Both the position numbers and the translations under genes were made by a program. Shown in pieces: positions 8,588 through 23,935 of a stretch of DNA of 64,000 bases. Each line of letters begins with the position of its first letter. The first letter of the stretch is position 1. The notes beneath the pieces are model-generated. The model had not been told where the DNA came from and ran no database searches. It saw nothing but the letters and a program-made list of their open reading frames with translations. The stretch is from Rubeoparvulum massiliense (GTDB taxonomy: Bacteria > Bacillota > Bacilli > Rubeoparvulales > Rubeoparvulaceae): contig NZ_CVPE01000006.1 of NCBI RefSeq assembly GCF_001049895.1, positions 704,503 to 768,502 of the forward strand, given 5' to 3'.

Positions 8588-9022
8588 TTATCTATTCCCT
8601 TCGAACATGCCCGTCTCATACTCCCTCCATATTATCATATCCTTCGTAGGGAGCGTAAAACAGCTTTCCACCAATTGCCGTCTACTTCCACCTCCACTGG
8701 CTACTGCACGAAAACAGATCATCTCCTCATCAGAATAGAACATCACCAATTTGGCTTCTCGGCCATTGATCTCTTGAATGATAGGCTGCTCAATGGCTTC
8801 TTCAAAAAAGATGTGCTGCTCAGCCCAGGCGATCATCCCTTCTGTTGCATAGCGATCACGTATGCCCTCCCATTGAAGCTGTAGCATCCCTTGGTACTCA
8901 CCGAGCATCGTCAGCGTATGCAAGGCAAGGATGGATAAAAAGAGGAGAATGAAAAGAAAAAGTGGAAAGGCAACGCCAGCTTCATTGGATAGGTAATATT
9001 TAATCCCACAACTTCGCTTCAA
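8588..9022 (-). CDS. comGG: Competence pseudopilin ComGG-like
   Basis: Last minor pseudopilin of the DNA-uptake pseudopilus; 144 residues. After a short basic N-terminus it has EAGVAFPLFLFILLFLSILALH, a pilin-like hydrophobic helix lacking the strict G/FTLIE processing motif, which is usual for ComGG. Its start overlaps the comGF stop by four bases (ATGA) and its stop is one base before aroK. The C-terminal domain has no recognised motif. Assignment is by position as seventh com gene and by the helix. Confidence 0.75.
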   Translation of the reverse strand: MKRSCGIKYYLSNEAGVAFPLFLFILLFLSILALHTLTMLGEYQGMLQLQWEGIRDRYATEGMIAWAEQHIFFEEAIEQPIIQEINGREAKLVMFYSDEEMICFRAVASGGGSRRQLVESCFTLPTKDMIIWREYETGMFEGNR

Positions 9023-16178: not shown

Positions 16179-16994
16179 TTACTTTTGCTCGGAAAGCCAC
16201 TGGGCAACGGCCTTGAGCTCATCATCGCTACCGTTGAAAAGGCCACCGGACATGATGGTGTCTGCGCGACCATTCTTGATCACATCATAGATCTCATCCT
16301 GTGAAAGACGTGAACCTACATCATTTAATGCTGGAGCCATCTGTGTACCACTCAAGTCATTACCATGACAGCTCAAACAACTTGCTTGCCCTAGGAGGAT
16401 CTGCTCCCCATCTAGTGCCGTTGCAGAAGGCTGTTCACTATCATCAGCAGGAATGGCAACATTCTCCTCCACAGGTGGTGGTGTAGCTGTTTCATCACCT
16501 GTAGCATGGGAGGTGGCACCTTGATAGGTAAGATAGAAGATAGCTACAATGGCAAATAACATGACCCCTGTGGCAATGGGTCGTTGTGAAGGACGACGGT
16601 AGGGACTACGATCCAACCATGGAGCCAATAGCAACGAACCAAAAGCTAGACCTGGGATTACGAGAATGCCGATTAAGACAAAATCACCAGATGCCCAAGG
16701 ATATTTCAATAGTTGATAGAGAAATAGAAAATACCAATCTGGTAATGGGATATAACTTGTATCCGTTGGGTTAGCTGGAGGCTCAAGTGGTGAGGGAGCC
16801 ACGACAGTCAACACTAGAATTCCCATCAAAACAACAACTGCTACCATCCATTCTTTGAGTAAGAAATTGGGCCAGAATGGTTCTGTCTTCCCTGGGTACT
16901 CAGAATAGGAAGGCGAGATGTTGGGACGGCGGCCGTTCGCCCTAACCCGCGAATCACCTACGTATTTAATTTCATCCTTTGGATTACTCATCAT
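16179..16994 (-). CDS. qcrC: Menaquinol:cytochrome c reductase cytochrome b/c subunit
   Basis: Fusion of the C-terminal part of cytochrome b (subunit IV) with a c-type cytochrome; 271 residues. The N-terminal part has the LPDWYFLFLYQLLKYP quinol-site segment and three membrane helices. After an acidic/Pro linker comes a heme c domain with CLSCH near residue 202 and a Met in TIMSGG as probable sixth ligand. Third gene of qcrABC, 27 bases after qcrB. The subunit takes electrons from the Rieske centre to cytochrome c on the outer membrane face. Confidence 0.95.
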   Translation of the reverse strand: MMSNPKDEIKYVGDSRVRANGRRPNISPSYSEYPGKTEPFWPNFLLKEWMVAVVVLMGILVLTVVAPSPLEPPANPTDTSYIPLPDWYFLFLYQLLKYPWASGDFVLIGILVIPGLAFGSLLLAPWLDRSPYRRPSQRPIATGVMLFAIVAIFYLTYQGATSHATGDETATPPPVEENVAIPADDSEQPSATALDGEQILLGQASCLSCHGNDLSGTQMAPALNDVGSRLSQDEIYDVIKNGRADTIMSGGLFNGSDDELKAVAQWLSEQK

Positions 16995-17021: not shown

Positions 17022-17693
17022 TTATAGCGGACCTGAGATTCCTTGACGGCGTATCATGATAAAGTGGGCTGCTAAGAGACCCAGCAAGGCAGCCGGTAGG
17101 AAGAAGACGTGGATTGCAAAGAAACGCGTTAATGTTACCGCACCTACGATTGGTCCGCCTAATAGAAGGCTTTGAAGATAGGTACCAATGAGCGGCACCT
17201 GACCTGCAATCTCCACACCAACCTTCGTTGCAAAGTACGCCTTCTGATCAAAGGGTAATAGATAGCCAGTAAAGCCTAACCCTAACATGACAAAAAAGAT
17301 AAGTACGCCAACAACCCAGTTTAACTCCCGTGGCTTCTTATATGCGCCCTGGAAGAAAACGCGTAACGTATGTAAAAACATCATTACAATGACAAGACTT
17401 GCTCCCCAATGGTGCATGCCTCGAACAATATCACCAAATGGCACTTGGTACTGGATATATTTGGTAGATTCATAGGCATTCTTAATATCAGGAACAAAGT
17501 ACATCGATAAAAACATGCCGGATAAAATTTGGATGACGACGATGAAGAAGGTTAATCCACCAAAGCAGTAGACAAATGCAGAAAAGTGATGAGCTGGGTT
17601 CACATGTTCAGGAACCTCATGGTCAGCAAAATCACGCCATAATGGAGTAACATCAAGACGTTCATCGATCCAATCGTATAGTTTTCTAAGCAT
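17022..17693 (-). CDS. qcrB: Menaquinol:cytochrome c reductase cytochrome b subunit
   Basis: N-terminal cytochrome b with four membrane helices that carries the two b hemes; 223 residues, the usual size. Heme ligands are in MHHWGASLVIVMMFLHTLRVF and in FFAIHVFFLPAAL...AAHFIMIRRQG. Cys43 (FVYCFGG) is present; in B. subtilis this residue binds the extra covalent heme c(i). GDIVRGMHHWGA marks the Qo side. It lies 7 bases after qcrA and 27 before qcrC. Confidence 0.96.
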   Translation of the reverse strand: MLRKLYDWIDERLDVTPLWRDFADHEVPEHVNPAHHFSAFVYCFGGLTFFIVVIQILSGMFLSMYFVPDIKNAYESTKYIQYQVPFGDIVRGMHHWGASLVIVMMFLHTLRVFFQGAYKKPRELNWVVGVLIFFVMLGLGFTGYLLPFDQKAYFATKVGVEIAGQVPLIGTYLQSLLLGGPIVGAVTLTRFFAIHVFFLPAALLGLLAAHFIMIRRQGISGPL

Positions 17694-17699
17694 CGGTTC

Positions 17700-18227
17700 C
17701 TACGCCCCCCTCTCCTTCGACCACGCACTAACATACAATACCTTTTCACCATTCAGTTCGCGAACTTCGTAGCTATGGGTATTAAGTGGCTTCTTAGGTG
17801 GTGTATTGGGTACGTTCACACCATCCTTGTAGTAGCGCCCATCATGACATGGACAATAATACTGTCCCGCATAGTTCGGATTGGTGTCCCATTGAATTAA
17901 ACATCCCAAATGCTTACATGTTGGGTCTAGGACCAAAAACTCATCCTTTTCTGCGTCATAAGTAACCCATGCAGTGGTATCTTTCTCGTAGGGATACCAG
18001 CCATCCTGGATCTTTACAGTAAAGTGCACTTCCCTGGGTTCTGGACCAAACTCGGATATTGGCAAAGTTGGAATCATATCAGCGCCTGCTGCATCTACAC
18101 GCAACATGGGATCAATGGCAAAGCGAACCATTGGGGTGAGCATGGCAGCTGCCATGAATCCACCAACGCCAGTTAAGGTATAATTCAAAAATTGTCGCCG
18201 TGAAAGGTCCTGATGCTTCTCACTCAT
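17700..18227 (-). CDS. qcrA: Menaquinol:cytochrome c reductase Rieske iron-sulfur subunit
   Basis: Carries the Rieske [2Fe-2S] cluster that accepts the first electron from menaquinol; 175 residues from MSEKHQDLSRRQFL. Cluster ligands are in CKHLGC and CPCHDG. The twin arginines before the hydrophobic anchor (SRRQFLNYTLTGVGGFMAAAML) suggest Tat export. The start has GGGGGGAAGAG upstream; the longer open frame to 18326 reaches back into the promoter. First gene of qcrABC. Confidence 0.96.
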   Translation of the reverse strand: MSEKHQDLSRRQFLNYTLTGVGGFMAAAMLTPMVRFAIDPMLRVDAAGADMIPTLPISEFGPEPREVHFTVKIQDGWYPYEKDTTAWVTYDAEKDEFLVLDPTCKHLGCLIQWDTNPNYAGQYYCPCHDGRYYKDGVNVPNTPPKKPLNTHSYEVRELNGEKVLYVSAWSKERGA

Positions 18228-18272
18228 GATCTCTTCCCCCCTACTCTTCACAATCTCTCTACTTATAAATAA

Positions 18273-18289
18273 TAACGTTGCACACGTTA
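18273..18289. promoter_or_regulatory. Inverted repeat in qcrA leader
   Basis: TAACGT and ACGTTA flank five bases, placing a small perfect inverted repeat about 15-30 bases downstream of the expected qcrA transcription start. It could be a repressor operator. It does not match a cre or Rex site that I can recall. Confidence 0.25.
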
Positions 18290-18308
18290 CCACTATTTGC
18301 ACATTTCC

Positions 18309-18337
18309 ATCATAGTTTACCTCCATATATCTGTCAA
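18309..18337 (-). promoter_or_regulatory. Sigma-A promoter of qcrABC
   Basis: Minus strand: a perfect TTGACA -35 (18332-18337), a 17-base spacer and TATGAT as -10 (18309-18314). The expected start is near 18302, giving a leader of about 75 bases before qcrA. Confidence 0.8.
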
Positions 18338-18461: not shown

Positions 18462-19034
18462 TTATTGAAAAATTGAAATCTCTTGAGCCTCTAGAAGGGC
18501 CAAACGCTTTGAAAGCTCATGGAAGCGTTGACCATCTCGATGATCAAGGGCTTCATCGATGGCCTCCTTCAGCCAAATCATTTGCTTTTCATAGTACGCC
18601 TTCTCTAATACCATCTCTGCAAACACTTCAATGACAGGGTGATCCTCAATATGGTGAACTGAACCCCAATGATTCTCTAATACAGCGGAGTACTCCTTCG
18701 AATGCTCTTTATCCTTAAAGAATAAGCCGATAAAGATCTCCTCATGAGGATTGGAACGAATATCATGAAATGCTTTCTCTACACTAGGTGTAACTCGGTT
18801 ATTCTTATAGAACTTGAAAGGGGTAGTATGAACACAGTTGGTGGAAATAATGATCAGCTTAGGTAGATTGGCAAAGTAATCCGTAAAATGCACCTTCTCT
18901 AATAGCTTATGATGAGTCATGACATAATGGAGCAACCATGCAGCTTCTTTTTTCTTCAATGTATAATGATTAAGAAAATATTGTAGAAACTCCTTTTTTT
19001 CATGCAGGCTGACAGCCTGTTTCACAATCATCAC
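18462..19034 (-). CDS. ypiB: UPF0302 protein YpiB
   Basis: Conserved Bacillales cytoplasmic protein of 190 residues and unknown function. Family traits are the helical N-terminus (VSLHEKKEFLQYFLNHYTLKKKEAAWLL), the VHFTDYFANLPK segment, and the C-terminal IDEALDHRDGQRFHELSKRL. It is followed by its own terminator and lies between ypiA and qcrA, the conserved order. In B. subtilis the protein interacts with other ypi products, but no activity is known. Confidence 0.88.
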   Translation of the reverse strand: MMIVKQAVSLHEKKEFLQYFLNHYTLKKKEAAWLLHYVMTHHKLLEKVHFTDYFANLPKLIIISTNCVHTTPFKFYKNNRVTPSVEKAFHDIRSNPHEEIFIGLFFKDKEHSKEYSAVLENHWGSVHHIEDHPVIEVFAEMVLEKAYYEKQMIWLKEAIDEALDHRDGQRFHELSKRLALLEAQEISIFQ

Positions 19035-19263: not shown

Positions 19264-20526
19264 CTATTCTTCTTGATAGCGTTGAATAATCTCAAGTATC
19301 TCTTCTTGATACGGGTCGATATGGAGAGAGTGTTCCCAGCACACAATAGCTTCGCTTACTTCACCGTTTTCCAATAATAAATATCCCATATCCTTCCATG
19401 CTACCTTGTCTTCTGGATTGAGAGATAAATGGTGACGCATTGCTTGAATTGCCTCAGGAATTTGCTCTAGCTCCTGTAGCACGCGAGCATAAGCCCAATG
19501 TACATCCTGATAATCACTACTGCGCTGAATACATGCTTGATAGGCTGTGGCAGCTTCTTCCCACTTATCTTGACCCCGATAGAGTTCTCCAACTAAGTAC
19601 CAGTATGGCGGATACTCTTCAAGATCGGCCTGTAAGCGATGGATTAATGATTCAGCCTCTCCATAGCGATGCTGTTGAACATAGAGGGTAAGTAACTGTA
19701 TAGCAATCTCCGCATCTTCTGGATTATAGGTGAGATAGCGATTCCACATCGTTTGAGCTTGCTCTAGATCCTGTTGATGATAATAGGCCTCCCCCAATAA
19801 ACGGTACGCTTGGATGTACTCAGGATCTTGACGAATTACCTCTTTTAAATAGCTCTCAGCAAGAAGATAATCCTTTAACTGACTAGCTATAAAGCCTGCT
19901 TTATAGAGGATGGTAACCGATTTTGCATCCCGTTGAAGCAACTCCTGATAACAGGCTAACGCTTCTTCGAAATGACCACTGTAGGCTGCATCATCACCTT
20001 CTAATTCAAGGCGCTGATCAGAGAGTAATTCAGGCTCTTCTGTTTCCATGTCCGTATGTATTTCTAGTCCTGCAGCTGTACGAACGTAGTGCCATGCATC
20101 CTGAATAGAAGTATCATGGGGTGCTAGTTGACGAGCATGATCGATGTACTCGTAAGCGACTTCTGGCATATCTAATAGCATCGAGGTATCTGCTAGCAGG
20201 ACTAAGAGACGAAGGTGATTAGGATACTCCTCCTTACACAAGAGCAGTTCAGCCCACGCATCTTCAATCTCTCCTTCATCCAATTGAATCTCTGCCATTA
20301 ATAGCTGCCCATCAATATCAGCAACAGCGATGAGTGGCTCTAATAGCTTTTTTGCCTTCTCCATATGTCCCAATTCATAGTAGAGCTCTGCTAAAGTTAG
20401 CATTTGATCATGGTTTAGCTCAGTCTCTTCTAATAATGCGAGTTGTTGAAGCCCTGCTTCTATTTCTCCAGCAATTAACAGATTTTCAGCCTGATCCAGC
20501 TGTTCTTCAAACGAATGTCCCATCAT
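19264..20526 (-). CDS. ypiA: TPR-repeat protein YpiA
   Basis: 420-residue protein made almost wholly of tetratricopeptide repeats, seen as repeated AxxLLxxGExxxAxxxWxxxLxxxP patterns (for example YLLLENGEVSEAIVCWEHSL near the C-terminus and LAELYYELGHMEKAKKLLEPL near the N-terminus). It is strongly acidic with no signal peptide, so probably a cytoplasmic scaffold. The order ypiA-ypiB-qcrABC matches B. subtilis. Partner proteins are unknown. Confidence 0.88.
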   Translation of the reverse strand: MMGHSFEEQLDQAENLLIAGEIEAGLQQLALLEETELNHDQMLTLAELYYELGHMEKAKKLLEPLIAVADIDGQLLMAEIQLDEGEIEDAWAELLLCKEEYPNHLRLLVLLADTSMLLDMPEVAYEYIDHARQLAPHDTSIQDAWHYVRTAAGLEIHTDMETEEPELLSDQRLELEGDDAAYSGHFEEALACYQELLQRDAKSVTILYKAGFIASQLKDYLLAESYLKEVIRQDPEYIQAYRLLGEAYYHQQDLEQAQTMWNRYLTYNPEDAEIAIQLLTLYVQQHRYGEAESLIHRLQADLEEYPPYWYLVGELYRGQDKWEEAATAYQACIQRSSDYQDVHWAYARVLQELEQIPEAIQAMRHHLSLNPEDKVAWKDMGYLLLENGEVSEAIVCWEHSLHIDPYQEEILEIIQRYQEE

Positions 20527-20634: not shown

Positions 20635-20664
20635 AGAAAAAACCGTTCATTCAAACGGTTTTTA
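20635..20664 (-). terminator. Terminator after anti-sigma gene
   Basis: Minus strand: AAACCGTT, a 6-base loop, AACGGTTTTTT. The stem overlaps the last codon region of the anti-sigma gene and ends the sigma/anti-sigma transcript. Confidence 0.8.
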
Positions 20665-21255
20665 ACTAACTCTAGTGAGCCAACACATTCCTAAGACAAT
20701 GATTGTGGTTCCAAATAGAGTTCCAATAATCCAGTAATCGATGGGTGAAGTGAATTGATCTACAGTATAAACCACGGGTTCACTAATACTAGCAACGACA
20801 GAATTCTCTTCCACCAACGCTGAAGAGTCTGCCTGTGATTCAGCCCAAGAAAGTTGAACCCAGCTTTTGTCAATATCGGTCACGCGTGAGTCTTGTACTG
20901 TGATAAACATGAAAGATAAGGAGAGTGTAACCAGCAAGAGAACTGCGATTAAGGAGCCAACTCTTCTAAGTTGCTCAGAGAGTTGAAACTTTCTTTTAGT
21001 GATGGGAACTGCCCACTTATTCTCTTCACGGATCCGATCCATGATATTGCCCATCATAAAGTTATCCGTAGAGAACTGGGATGAGTGCACTTGGTGCTCT
21101 GGCTCTACCCACTCCATACTACGCTTAATAACTTGGTGCTCCTCAGCACAATCCAAACAGCCCTTCAAGTGATGCATGATATAACGGCATTCTATCTCGC
21201 TAAGTCTTCCTGCTTCCATATCAAGAAGTTTGGCCTGTACTTCTTCACACTTCAT
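20662..21255 (-). CDS. Zinc-finger (zf-HC2) membrane anti-sigma factor
   Basis: Probable anti-sigma partner of the ECF sigma factor encoded directly upstream; 197 residues. The N-terminal domain has the zinc-type motif H29-x3-C33-x2-C36 (HLKGCLDC), usual in ZAS anti-sigma proteins. A first membrane helix lies near residues 100-120 and a second near 173-193, giving a roughly 50-residue loop outside and a C-terminus back inside; most such proteins have only one helix. It follows the sigma gene by 21 bases. PrsW, which cuts RsiW in B. subtilis, is encoded at 45.8-46.5 kb. Confidence 0.75.
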   Translation of the reverse strand: MKCEEVQAKLLDMEAGRLSEIECRYIMHHLKGCLDCAEEHQVIKRSMEWVEPEHQVHSSQFSTDNFMMGNIMDRIREENKWAVPITKRKFQLSEQLRRVGSLIAVLLLVTLSLSFMFITVQDSRVTDIDKSWVQLSWAESQADSSALVEENSVVASISEPVVYTVDQFTSPIDYWIIGTLFGTTIIVLGMCWLTRVS

Positions 21256-21276: not shown

Positions 21277-21855
21277 TCATTTCACCGCCTTTATCTGTTT
21301 ATCATCAAAATAGTATTCTAACTGATCCTTTATACTATTTCGAGCACGAAATAGTAACGACTTGACCGAACTAACAGTGGCATTTAATAAGATAGCAATC
21401 TCCTTATAATCCAACTGTTCGTACTCTCGGAGGATAATAGCTGCTCGTTGTTTTTCAGGTAGATTATTGATAGCCTGTCGCACTAAATCCTCACGCTCAA
21501 ATCGTAGAACCTCTTGTTCAGGTAGGCGGTCGGTAGATTCCTTTGGTAGTATGTAGTTATCTTCTAAGTAAACCTCTGTATTCTTACTTTTACGAAGTTC
21601 ACTAAGTACAGTATTTCTCGCAATGGTGTATAGCCAAGTTGAAAAGGAGGCTTCAACGTCTCGGAATGAATGAATATTTTTAAATGCCTTATAGAAAGTC
21701 TCCTGCGTTAAATCTTCTGCAAGGGCTTCCACATGGCTATTACGCAGCATATGAAGAATAAACATGAGAATCTTTTTTTCATATCTGCGAATTAATTCAG
21801 CGTATAGCTCAATATTACCATCTTTTATCTCACGAACAATTTGTGAATCGGTCAT
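21277..21855 (-). CDS. ECF-type RNA polymerase sigma factor
   Basis: Group IV sigma-70 factor, 192 residues. Region 2 contains LTQETFYKAFKNIHSFRD and FSTWLYTIARNTVLSELRKSK (core binding and -10 recognition). Region 4 is LPEKQRAAIILREYEQLDYKEIAILLNATVSSVKSLLFRARNS in two pieces, the -35-reading helix-turn-helix. ATG 21855 has ACAGGAGG upstream. It forms a two-gene unit with the zinc-finger anti-sigma gene. I cannot assign it to SigW, SigX or SigM by eye, so no symbol is given. Confidence 0.88.
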   Translation of the reverse strand: MTDSQIVREIKDGNIELYAELIRRYEKKILMFILHMLRNSHVEALAEDLTQETFYKAFKNIHSFRDVEASFSTWLYTIARNTVLSELRKSKNTEVYLEDNYILPKESTDRLPEQEVLRFEREDLVRQAINNLPEKQRAAIILREYEQLDYKEIAILLNATVSSVKSLLFRARNSIKDQLEYYFDDKQIKAVK

Positions 21856-21937: not shown

Positions 21938-23050
21938 TCAATGGCTACCAAATGAATAACTACATAGCAGATTTCCCTGTCCCCGCGGCCAATGGGGGGC
22001 AGGCATTGTAATCAATTGCCCACGAAGCATTATAAATTGTGGAAAATAAAGCTCCTCATATAGTAAATTATCGGAAGAAATGCCTTTCGTCAATAGGGCT
22101 GGGCGCTGAAAAAAGAGAAGATCTGCATCTGCTCCATGGCGGATGGTTCCCTTTCTTCCATGCCAGCCATAATACTGGGCAATTCGATAGGAAGATGCGG
22201 TTAGCCAACTCTCTACATGGGGTATACGATTAAGTGTTGTAAAAGGTTTTGGGTTTCCAACTTTTTTCATTAATAATCTTGTTTGATTATAGTTTAACAA
22301 TTCTTCTGGTGAGGTATAAAAAAAGTATGGTACTTGGTGACGGGTAAGCTTGTCAATCAAAGCGGACTGATATTTGTCGAGATATGGGAGCAGCCCTACA
22401 AGTTGATGGGTCTGAAGACGTGCGAACCACGCATAAGGAAGGCTCAAATACTTAACACCATATGCGAATTGCTCTCTCATCGGGATTCTCTTGATACCTC
22501 TAGGGTTAGAGACCAATTGGTGATTGATAGAGGGATAAATGCTAAAGAACATCTCATATTGTAGCCTATATCGCCTGAGCTGAGCAAGCCCCTGTTGAAC
22601 TTGATCTTCCGTTGCCAATAAGTAGATATGGGTAAATTTTACTTTTTTCCACAAAGCAATGAGCTCTGGTTGGAGATCGCTTAAGGGAAAGATAGGCAAA
22701 AGATAGTAGTCGAAGGGTAGATTAAGATGCTTAGATGTCTCTCTCGCTAACCAACGCTGCGGCGCATCATAATCTGGCTGTGTCACAAGACGAGGGATCA
22801 ATAATGTTGTAATACCAGCACGGACATAATACTCCCAGTTCTCTGGAGCAGAAATACTTCGGTAAGAGTCTATGCTATGACTGATTCGACCAGGCATGAT
22901 GAGATAGTCCGAAGCGTCAAGGTGAGTACATTCATTGAATGGAGTGATATGACGATCAATTTTTACGATTTTACCATTCTCAATGAGAATGTCATAGATT
23001 CCCCAATAATTACGACTCCAGATCATTGCACGATGAATCAACCAACGCAT
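21938..23050 (-). CDS. Amidohydrolase-like protein lacking metal ligands
   Basis: Resembles the dihydroorotase/hydantoinase branch of the amidohydrolases; 370 residues. The N-terminal small domain (YDILIENGKIVKID...LDASDYLIMPG) and the C-terminal return strand (GTIRHGADADLLFF) are clear. The canonical PG-h-h-D-x-H-x-H metal motif is replaced by PGRISHSID (residues 53-61): the first His is Ser59 and the second is Asp61. No lysine or HxH replacement is evident later. It may therefore be non-catalytic, binding or scaffolding instead. It lies between cheR and the ECF sigma gene with about 80 bases on either side. Not known to me as a named Bacillus gene. Confidence 0.65.
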   Translation of the reverse strand: MRWLIHRAMIWSRNYWGIYDILIENGKIVKIDRHITPFNECTHLDASDYLIMPGRISHSIDSYRSISAPENWEYYVRAGITTLLIPRLVTQPDYDAPQRWLARETSKHLNLPFDYYLLPIFPLSDLQPELIALWKKVKFTHIYLLATEDQVQQGLAQLRRYRLQYEMFFSIYPSINHQLVSNPRGIKRIPMREQFAYGVKYLSLPYAWFARLQTHQLVGLLPYLDKYQSALIDKLTRHQVPYFFYTSPEELLNYNQTRLLMKKVGNPKPFTTLNRIPHVESWLTASSYRIAQYYGWHGRKGTIRHGADADLLFFQRPALLTKGISSDNLLYEELYFPQFIMLRGQLITMPAPHWPRGQGNLLCSYSFGSH

Positions 23051-23112
23051 CCGCTTCCCTTCCTTCCCCCACCTCTCCTTCTATCTATTGTATAAGCTAC
23101 TCGTAAAATTAT

Positions 23113-23146
23113 GAAAAAAAGATGGCGGAAGAGAATCATCGCCATC
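23113..23146 (-). terminator. Terminator after cheR
   Basis: Minus strand: GATGGCG, a 12-base loop, CGCCATC and then seven T. It lies about 10 bases past the cheR stop. Confidence 0.85.
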
Positions 23147-23155
23147 TCCTATCCA

Positions 23156-23935
23156 CTATTCCATTTTACGATAAAAGAACGTGTCTTCGGTTACAAACTG
23201 GTAACGTTGAGGTTGGAAGATTTGTTCTGTGCTTCCAACGAAAAGAATTCCACCCGGTCGTAATGCTTGACTAAATTTAGCATAGATCTGATCCTTCGCC
23301 TCTTCTGTAAAGTAGATCATCACATTACGACAGATGATGAGGTCATAACCGCTTCCATAGGGATCTGCTAAGAGATTATGCCGTTTAAACTGAATGCGAT
23401 TTTTAATCTCATCAGAAATGGCGTAGAACTCTCCTTCCTTACGAAAATAACGCTGTAGTAAGGGAGTAGGAATACCTTGGATCGCTCGTTCATTGTAGAG
23501 GCCGATTTTGGCCCGAGCGATGGCATTTTCGTCGATATCGGTGGCCAAGATGGAAGCATTTCGATCATAGCCCAACTGTTTTAAGATGAGAAGTAATGTA
23601 TAAGGCTCCTCGCCAGTAGAGCACGCTGCACTCCAGCATTGAAGCCGTCCTGTTTTTTGAACTAACTTGGGAAGTATTTTATTCTGAAGCACTTGCCAGC
23701 GCCCATCATTCCGATAAAACTCTGAGACATTGATCGTCATCTTATCAAGGAACTCATAATATAATGTTGCATCACGATCTAGAGCATGAAAAAATTGGAC
23801 AAACGTCGGGAACTCTCGTTTATTGCGTAAAGAGGTGAGGCGCCGCTTCATTTGTGCCTCTTTGTATTGACTCAAATCGATCCCCGATTTACGGTAAATT
23901 AGACGAATAAACTCCTGGTAGTCTTTATCCTCCAT
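23156..23935 (-). CDS. cheR: Chemotaxis protein methyltransferase CheR
   Basis: Methylates glutamate side chains of chemoreceptors using SAM; 259 residues. The N-terminal helical domain (YRKSGIDLSQYKEAQMKRRL) precedes the methyltransferase core with LQCWSAACSTGEEPYTL near residue 95, ILATDIDENAIARA near 130 and LIICRNVMIYF near 200. No receptor or other che gene is nearby; cheR next to ndk and the hep/men genes is the normal Bacillus location. It has its own terminator and is separated from ndk by another. Confidence 0.95.
   Translation of the reverse strand: MEDKDYQEFIRLIYRKSGIDLSQYKEAQMKRRLTSLRNKREFPTFVQFFHALDRDATLYYEFLDKMTINVSEFYRNDGRWQVLQNKILPKLVQKTGRLQCWSAACSTGEEPYTLLLILKQLGYDRNASILATDIDENAIARAKIGLYNERAIQGIPTPLLQRYFRKEGEFYAISDEIKNRIQFKRHNLLADPYGSGYDLIICRNVMIYFTEEAKDQIYAKFSQALRPGGILFVGSTEQIFQPQRYQFVTEDTFFYRKME

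Follow-up and report, generated by a model that had tools for sequence, protein, structure and literature searches.

A metal-less hydantoinase-like protein family encoded upstream of the ypiA and qcr genes in Bacilli

The known inactive amidohydrolases include the CRMPs and the pseudo-dihydroorotases of ATCase and CAD-like proteins. The CRMPs are inactive neuronal homologues of dihydropyrimidinase (DHPase) that form tetramers and bind tubulin; they are 51–54% identical to DHPase, extend into a C-terminal tail beyond residue 490, and are reported there to have neither conserved Zn ligands (His69 and His248) nor DHPase activity (PMC7325199). In Pseudomonas, the pseudo-dihydroorotase (pDHO) of the class A2 aspartate transcarbamoylase (ATCase) is an inactive amidohydrolase that is needed for ATCase activity (PMC7053772).

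Here we analyse a gene, designated X, in a stretch of 64,000 nucleotides of the Rubeoparvulum massiliense genome (the window). A first-pass annotation had read its product as an amidohydrolase relative without catalysis, like the inactive scaffolds already known, and this reading is supported. X belongs to a bacterial family of pseudo-dihydropyrimidinases, as judged from the fold of a Brevibacillus orthologue, the loss of the metal site in all members read, a phylogenetic tree, selection and genomic position, and it is probably a non-enzymatic helper protein. Among the literature matches listed, in a search with most subscription journals outside its scope, no title or opening of an abstract indicated a paper on this gene.

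Kinship with hydantoinases and loss of the metal site

In the window, X (21938..23050; this and all window features given below lie on the reverse strand) starts with ATG and encodes 370 aa with zero internal stops, in an open frame of 380 aa, and was recognized from its frame, homology and alignment as a metal-less hydantoinase-like protein (pseudo-dihydropyrimidinase). At the place of the metal motif PG-h-h-D-x-H-x-H, sequence and alignment put PGRISHSID (codons 53–61, 22868..22894), with S and D at the two HxH places and a single His at another offset, which confirms the loss claimed for this protein. Alignment also located the C-terminal signature G-x(4)-K-G-x(4)-GADAD, common to hydantoinases (codons 295–310, 22121..22168). 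Residues 19–58 and the GADAD segment resemble hydantoinase and dihydroorotase models, in every case under the curated cut-off, with 16.3 bits for Pfam Amidohydro_1 (PF01979; cut-off 25), 31.2 bits for the D-hydantoinase model TIGR02033 (cut-off 393.25) and 28.4 bits for the best dihydroorotase model. The N- and C-terminal amidohydrolase signatures of the first-pass annotation are a real likeness, weak for the window protein alone.

For the family as a whole, 12 of 15 members match TIGR02033 at E ≤ 0.01, the strongest at 1.8e-27, and no dihydroorotase model was matched by as many members or as well; one of the 15 matches Pfam DUF6407 (E 0.0012). The likeness exceeds chance, since the family profile aligned with catalytic amidohydrolases at hhalign probabilities of 99.6–100% (E-values 2e-24 and 1e-37, with 345 and 357 columns aligned). 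An AlphaFold2 model of the B. porteri orthologue, built with 24 sequences (pLDDT 85.9, pTM 0.88), contains the hydantoinase fold, that is, the beta-sandwich and barrel of 1yny and 3sfw. Among the matches listed by the fold search, beside which other folds or families are possible, the best was the D-hydantoinase PDB 1yny (Z 27.6, rmsd 3.6, 337 aligned), CRMPs reached Z about 26, Foldseek gave E 2.8e-19 for 1k1d, and the neighbours in Foldseek and VIA-align were D-hydantoinases, dihydropyrimidinases and CRMPs; identity to hydantoinases and dihydropyrimidinases in the fold alignments was 16–22%. Window X itself modelled poorly, with a pLDDT of 49.5 and confidence limited to roughly the first 50 residues, and the kinship of the window protein hence rests on sequence, position and the tree. 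From the profile scores and the fold of the Brevibacillus orthologue, the closest kin of X is D-hydantoinase/dihydropyrimidinase rather than dihydroorotase, and the dihydroorotase-type assignment given earlier has to be replaced; dihydroorotase proper was rejected as a candidate on the same scores and fold.

When the X members were set against two HxH hydantoinases in a gapped alignment, the six metal ligands were found in 0 (H1), 0 (H2), 1 (K), 0 (H3), 20 (H4) and 5 (D) of 53 distinct proteins, the H4 and Asp counts being soft since the alignment is poor in mid-barrel. At most two of the six are kept in any one protein, window X has Y, a gap, E and E at the K, H3, H4 and D columns, and the strand-8 Asp segment has no counterpart in X in the profile alignment. 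In an ungapped count from PG, His occupies the first HxH place in one of the 53 and the second in six, four of these in the B. brevis group (L042, L057, L058, L059), and both places in none, so orthologues are also without HxH; in member L051 an HxH lies four residues later than the canonical one.

Two findings that could overturn the loss of the motif had been named with the first-pass annotation, namely histidines shifted to a conserved alternative position and a sequence error at 22.8–22.9 kb; both were looked for and the reading stands. No alternative His/Cys column is conserved at 85% of 63 rows (53 distinct members, 10 genomes being present twice and L170 and L183 left out), and the only His/Cys column found in half of the members is that of window H108 (38/53). 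A shifted His site was accordingly rejected, the exceptions being L051 and the six members with a second-place His. Since the whole X family is without the motif, an error in the sequence or a frame shift can for practical purposes be excluded.

Which residues are kept bears on whether X could be an enzyme whose active site is novel, works without metal and lies within the old barrel. Conserved in at least 85% of the 63 rows and not common to both catalytic references are N110, D114 and a pair of Trp columns, of which window X has only one, and these would suit such an enzyme. Against it, P53, G54, G79, T81, Y115, G295, K300, G301 and D310 are common to X and both catalytic references and so uninformative on a new function, and the shorter X forms (288–319 aa, about 300 aa) have given up about 70 further barrel residues, which makes a closed active site unlikely. 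A new enzyme is the least probable of the readings considered here.

Distribution, descent and selection

Homologues of X are present in 62 of 398 Bacilli genomes, under 17 family labels, and the idea that X is a lone oddity of one genome was dropped. A profile built from 15 members found 59 of the 398 class genomes at 76 bits or more, the window's included, and the best non-X frame among the matches listed, of 485 aa, scored 61.5 bits. The count rose to 62 with G087 (51.8 bits) and with G033 and G043, both found only at the locus; as these three fall under the score gap or outside it, X may occur in other families more often than counted here. In a draw of 139 genomes from the phylum, mostly outside the class, only the window scored above 60.8 bits. 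Used alone as the query, window X found weak pieces in 6 of 61 genomes (its own included) and in 42 of 398, and no match in a scan of contigs of close relatives; no second genome from the window's order is in the sample. Several f22 frames matched by the single-sequence search have 370–390 aa, too short for hydantoinases, and inspection revealed X homologues lacking HxH among them. From the 20 loci read first, L044, L048 and L052 were removed as true HxH enzymes. The named X loci number 25, 24 titled Brevibacillus and one, L068 (NZ_CP064048.1), titled Anoxybacillus sediminis; L068 has the same X as G041, whose label f22 is that of the Brevibacillus records, and the Anoxybacillus name therefore looks wrong.

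A qcrB match was obtained in 288 of the 398 class genomes. All 62 X genomes are among them, and none of the 110 genomes without a qcrB match reaches the 76 bits that mark an X-like score. Among 20 additional qcr loci, chosen from families and genera without a clear X, two contain X and 18 have no detectable X, indicating that X is optional or dispensable.

One branch parts X from the catalytic enzymes in a tree of 29 X and 11 HxH rows (support 99/98, and 100% of 200 bootstrap trees), the HxH rows having been chosen by their motif (11 of 35 such frames), the X rows by profile and position, and several rows being of unusual composition. The window row stands on a long branch (2.11), and its place inside X is for that reason unsure. 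The metal site may have been lost once, before these Bacilli families diverged.

X is maintained by purifying selection. Its dN/dS is 0.087–0.242 in seven Brevibacillus pairs, its neighbours (sigma, anti-sigma, ypiA, qcrB) have values of 0.00–0.14, and no internal stop occurs in the 63 X rows. The faster evolution of X relative to its neighbours, the truncation of the barrel in many families and the patchy presence of the gene are all what would be expected of a decaying relic carried along by neighbouring genes. This reading is quite unlikely given a dN/dS of 0.09–0.24, the absence of a stop in any of the 63 rows and the retention of the PG, GxT, DY and KG signatures in most rows across 17 family labels.

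Gene order at X loci

Gene order was read at 54 distinct loci (64 were fetched, 10 genomes twice, with L170 and L183 counted), which comprise a subset of the 62 X genomes together with some loci of the named collection that may lie outside the 398. The order is trpA-hisC-tyrA-aroA, X, the sigma and anti-sigma genes where present, ypiA, reoY where detected, qcrA and qcrB, with single genes absent here and there. Upstream, aroA is found at 51 of the 54 loci; ypiA is near X at 51; the sigma gene is directly downstream of X at 39 and absent from 15; and all 25 named loci have X-sigma-anti-sigma-ypiA. The distance from X to the downstream qcrB is 2.7–7.7 kb in 50 loci and 11–21 kb in three, and the stretch fetched for L074 ends before qcrB. 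The X family thus has a fixed position upstream of (sigma-anti-sigma-)ypiA/qcr, which is also its position in the window. The first-pass annotation had seen no obvious pathway in this placement; the place, between aroA (51/54) and the ypiA/qcr genes, is conserved. In L174, L186 and L206 (families f2 and f25), X and sigma precede qcr and no ypiA was detectable, and L174 has an unrelated 373-aa frame at the ypiA place.

The neighbours of X in the window are as first described. Directly downstream are an ECF sigma factor gene, SigM/SigW-like by homology (21277..21855), and a gene for a zf-HC2-like anti-sigma factor (20662..21255), which scores 19.3 bits, under the Pfam cut-off of 22.2, and is a conserved neighbour of X. 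These are followed by a gene for a TPR protein (19264..20526), identified by homology and conserved near X, which we take to be ypiA; by a ypiB/reoY homologue (18462..19034), with homologues at X loci, presumably ypiB from the B. subtilis gene order; and by genes for a Rieske protein (17700..18326), a cytochrome b (17022..17693) and a further subunit (16179..16994), to which we likewise give the assumed names qcrA, qcrB and qcrC. The first and last of these three were assigned from the sequence and the gene order of relatives, and the second is the qcrB with the 288 class matches.

Upstream, the window has a cheR gene, identified by homology (23156..23935). It adjoins X because the trp-his-tyr-aro block is absent between cheR (23935) and X (23050), and among the loci read cheR directly precedes X in the window only. 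A hairpin with a T-run follows cheR (23110..23152; −14.6 kcal/mol, z −4.1, equalled by none of 200 shuffled sequences); a consensus scan did not have it among its calls, and an Rfam scan of the window found one tRNA. The promoter-like match at 23115–23087 agrees at 9 of 12 positions only, in a scan with 13 matches against a shuffle mean of 19.7. As the hairpin and T-run close cheR, window X probably begins its own transcription unit.

Whether orthologues also sit beside sigma genes was a question raised with the first-pass annotation; this proved frequent (39/54) and not constant (15/54 without). X could be the third part of a sigma/anti-sigma switch, a cytoplasmic regulator that senses a ligand or a protein and frees or holds the ECF sigma. 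It directly precedes sigma in the window and at those 39 loci, and in the window its place after a terminator-like hairpin makes it the likely opening gene of the sigma's transcription unit. The two are nevertheless found apart, since X occurs without sigma at 15 of 54 loci and, of the 18 qcr loci where no X was detected, four (L188, L192, L193, L204) keep sigma, and we regard the switch as possible and rather doubtful. At the 15 sigma-less loci X lies directly before ypiA, at a distance of −55 to 151 bp in 14 of them (start codons taken mechanically); no spacing is given for L175, where X and the ypiA match overlap in different frames.

The neighbourhood also bears on whether X could be the inactive partner in a hetero-oligomer with a hydantoinase or dihydroorotase that is active and encoded at another locus. 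Known dihydropyrimidinases are mostly tetramers (PMC5832032), as are CRMPs (PMC7325199), and the window genome has a 436-aa frame with 184.9 bits to TIGR02033. This frame is presumably PyrC; no frame of the window genome, which is 97% complete, reaches the hydantoinase cut-off of TIGR02033, those 184.9 bits being the best score, and pyrimidine genes do not appear in the gene order as read at X loci, which renders such a partnership very unlikely.

Just upstream of X there is, at many loci, an ultraconserved small-RNA-like gene (L057:8803-8899(+) and 39 other stretches, 64–113 nt). Most copies have a TTGACA/TATAAT-like promoter and a C-rich stretch, TATGGTTTCTCTCCACTCCTATC, then a hairpin and T-run; the invariance in alignment A5 arises partly by selection, the copies having been picked by their core. 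With up to 2 mismatches allowed, its 23-mer was matched in 152 of the 398 Bacilli genomes, usually by a single copy and in at least 6 by two, and the backward control gave 0 matches. Copies are also present beside qcr loci that have no X, in L178 the gene is on the opposite strand, and its appearance after X at some loci is an artefact of choosing the longest-frame start. Rfam returned no family at gathering in 6 loci and, at E ≤ 1 on two stretches, a single weak opposite-strand match only; a text search with its letters found no paper in the literature collection covered. In the window genome the 23-mer had no match, the 17-mer core had one 2-mismatch match (as in the control), and model R1, run without a positive control, had none. 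The promoter spacer (L188:6350-6410; L057 about 8760-8800) contains sequences that we take to be cre-like, TGTAAACGTATACA in L188 and AAGCGCTTACA in many Brevibacillus, which suggests that the small-RNA-like gene may be under carbon catabolite control.

A candidate adaptor and its known counterparts

The best explanation of X, to which as a whole we assign a probability of roughly 0.55, is that of a relative of dihydropyrimidinase and hydantoinase which is dead as a catalyst and has been retained in the cytoplasm for a structural or regulatory role. By analogy with CRMPs and the Pseudomonas pDHO, it would act by binding another protein, possibly one encoded in the same gene cluster, and would be a scaffold or adaptor in the qcr-locus operon. 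The first candidate partner is the TPR protein YpiA, because X directly precedes ypiA without the sigma pair in 15 of 54 loci, and the second is the sigma/anti-sigma pair; YpiA was not found in 3 of 54 loci and sigma not in 15, and neither is therefore a constant partner. The process served might be the building or regulation of the menaquinol:cytochrome c reductase (Qcr) branch. The step from a conserved place to an action on Qcr is an inference, as a fixed position may be inherited order only. A link to the cell wall is possible as well as a respiratory one, since in Listeria and B. subtilis the degradation of MurA(A) is reported to depend on ReoY (YpiB), from the same cluster (PMC7286690).

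In a further reading, X would be a pseudo-hydantoinase sensor for a metabolite of the neighbouring chorismate/menaquinone pathway, or for a dihydropyrimidine, and would use the sigma/anti-sigma pair or YpiA to adjust how much the quinol-cytochrome c branch delivers. This is unlikely; if it were true, bacteria would have in X their own equivalent of the CRMPs, working as a switch of respiration. Tied by position to the cytochrome bc genes, X is a testable candidate for a factor in respiration or in a circuit around an ECF sigma.

Compared with the D-hydantoinases and dihydropyrimidinases (TIGR02033; 1yny, 3sfw, 1k1d), the Brevibacillus orthologue has the same fold end to end (Z about 27, 337–341 aligned), and both terminal signatures are shared, as is the DY that follows strand 2. 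X differs in being without the binuclear-metal ligands and, in the profile alignment, a counterpart of the strand-8 Asp, in its length of about 370 or 300 aa versus about 460, and in scoring far under the curated cut-off. It thus has neither the HxH, nor the Lys/His/His/Asp set, nor the curated family score of the catalytic cyclic amidohydrolases, and an automatic label of 'amidohydrolase' or 'dihydroorotase' would mislead.

The downstream genes at X loci are those of the Bacillus ypiA-ypiB(reoY)-ypiF-qcrABC locus, in which X and often sigma/anti-sigma are extra genes in other Bacilli; B. subtilis is not known to have X there. With the pDHO, X shares the state of an inactive amidohydrolase, in the case of pDHO one that its partner needs, but pDHO is related to dihydroorotase and forms an assembly with ATCase, whereas X is hydantoinase-like and has no pyrB among the neighbours read. 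With CRMP/DPYSL it shares the dihydropyrimidinase fold (structural match of the Brevibacillus orthologue, Z about 26) and the lost metal ligands. In contrast to the CRMPs, X is bacterial, shorter and tail-less, and about 20% identical to either CRMP or DHPase; its fold alignment to CRMP covers 373 residues and CRMP positions up to 481, with nothing beyond, so that it has neither the 51–54% identity to DHPase nor the long C-terminal tail that mark a CRMP. X is another lineage of inactive amidohydrolases, carried by many Bacilli, with part of the barrel given up in some members.
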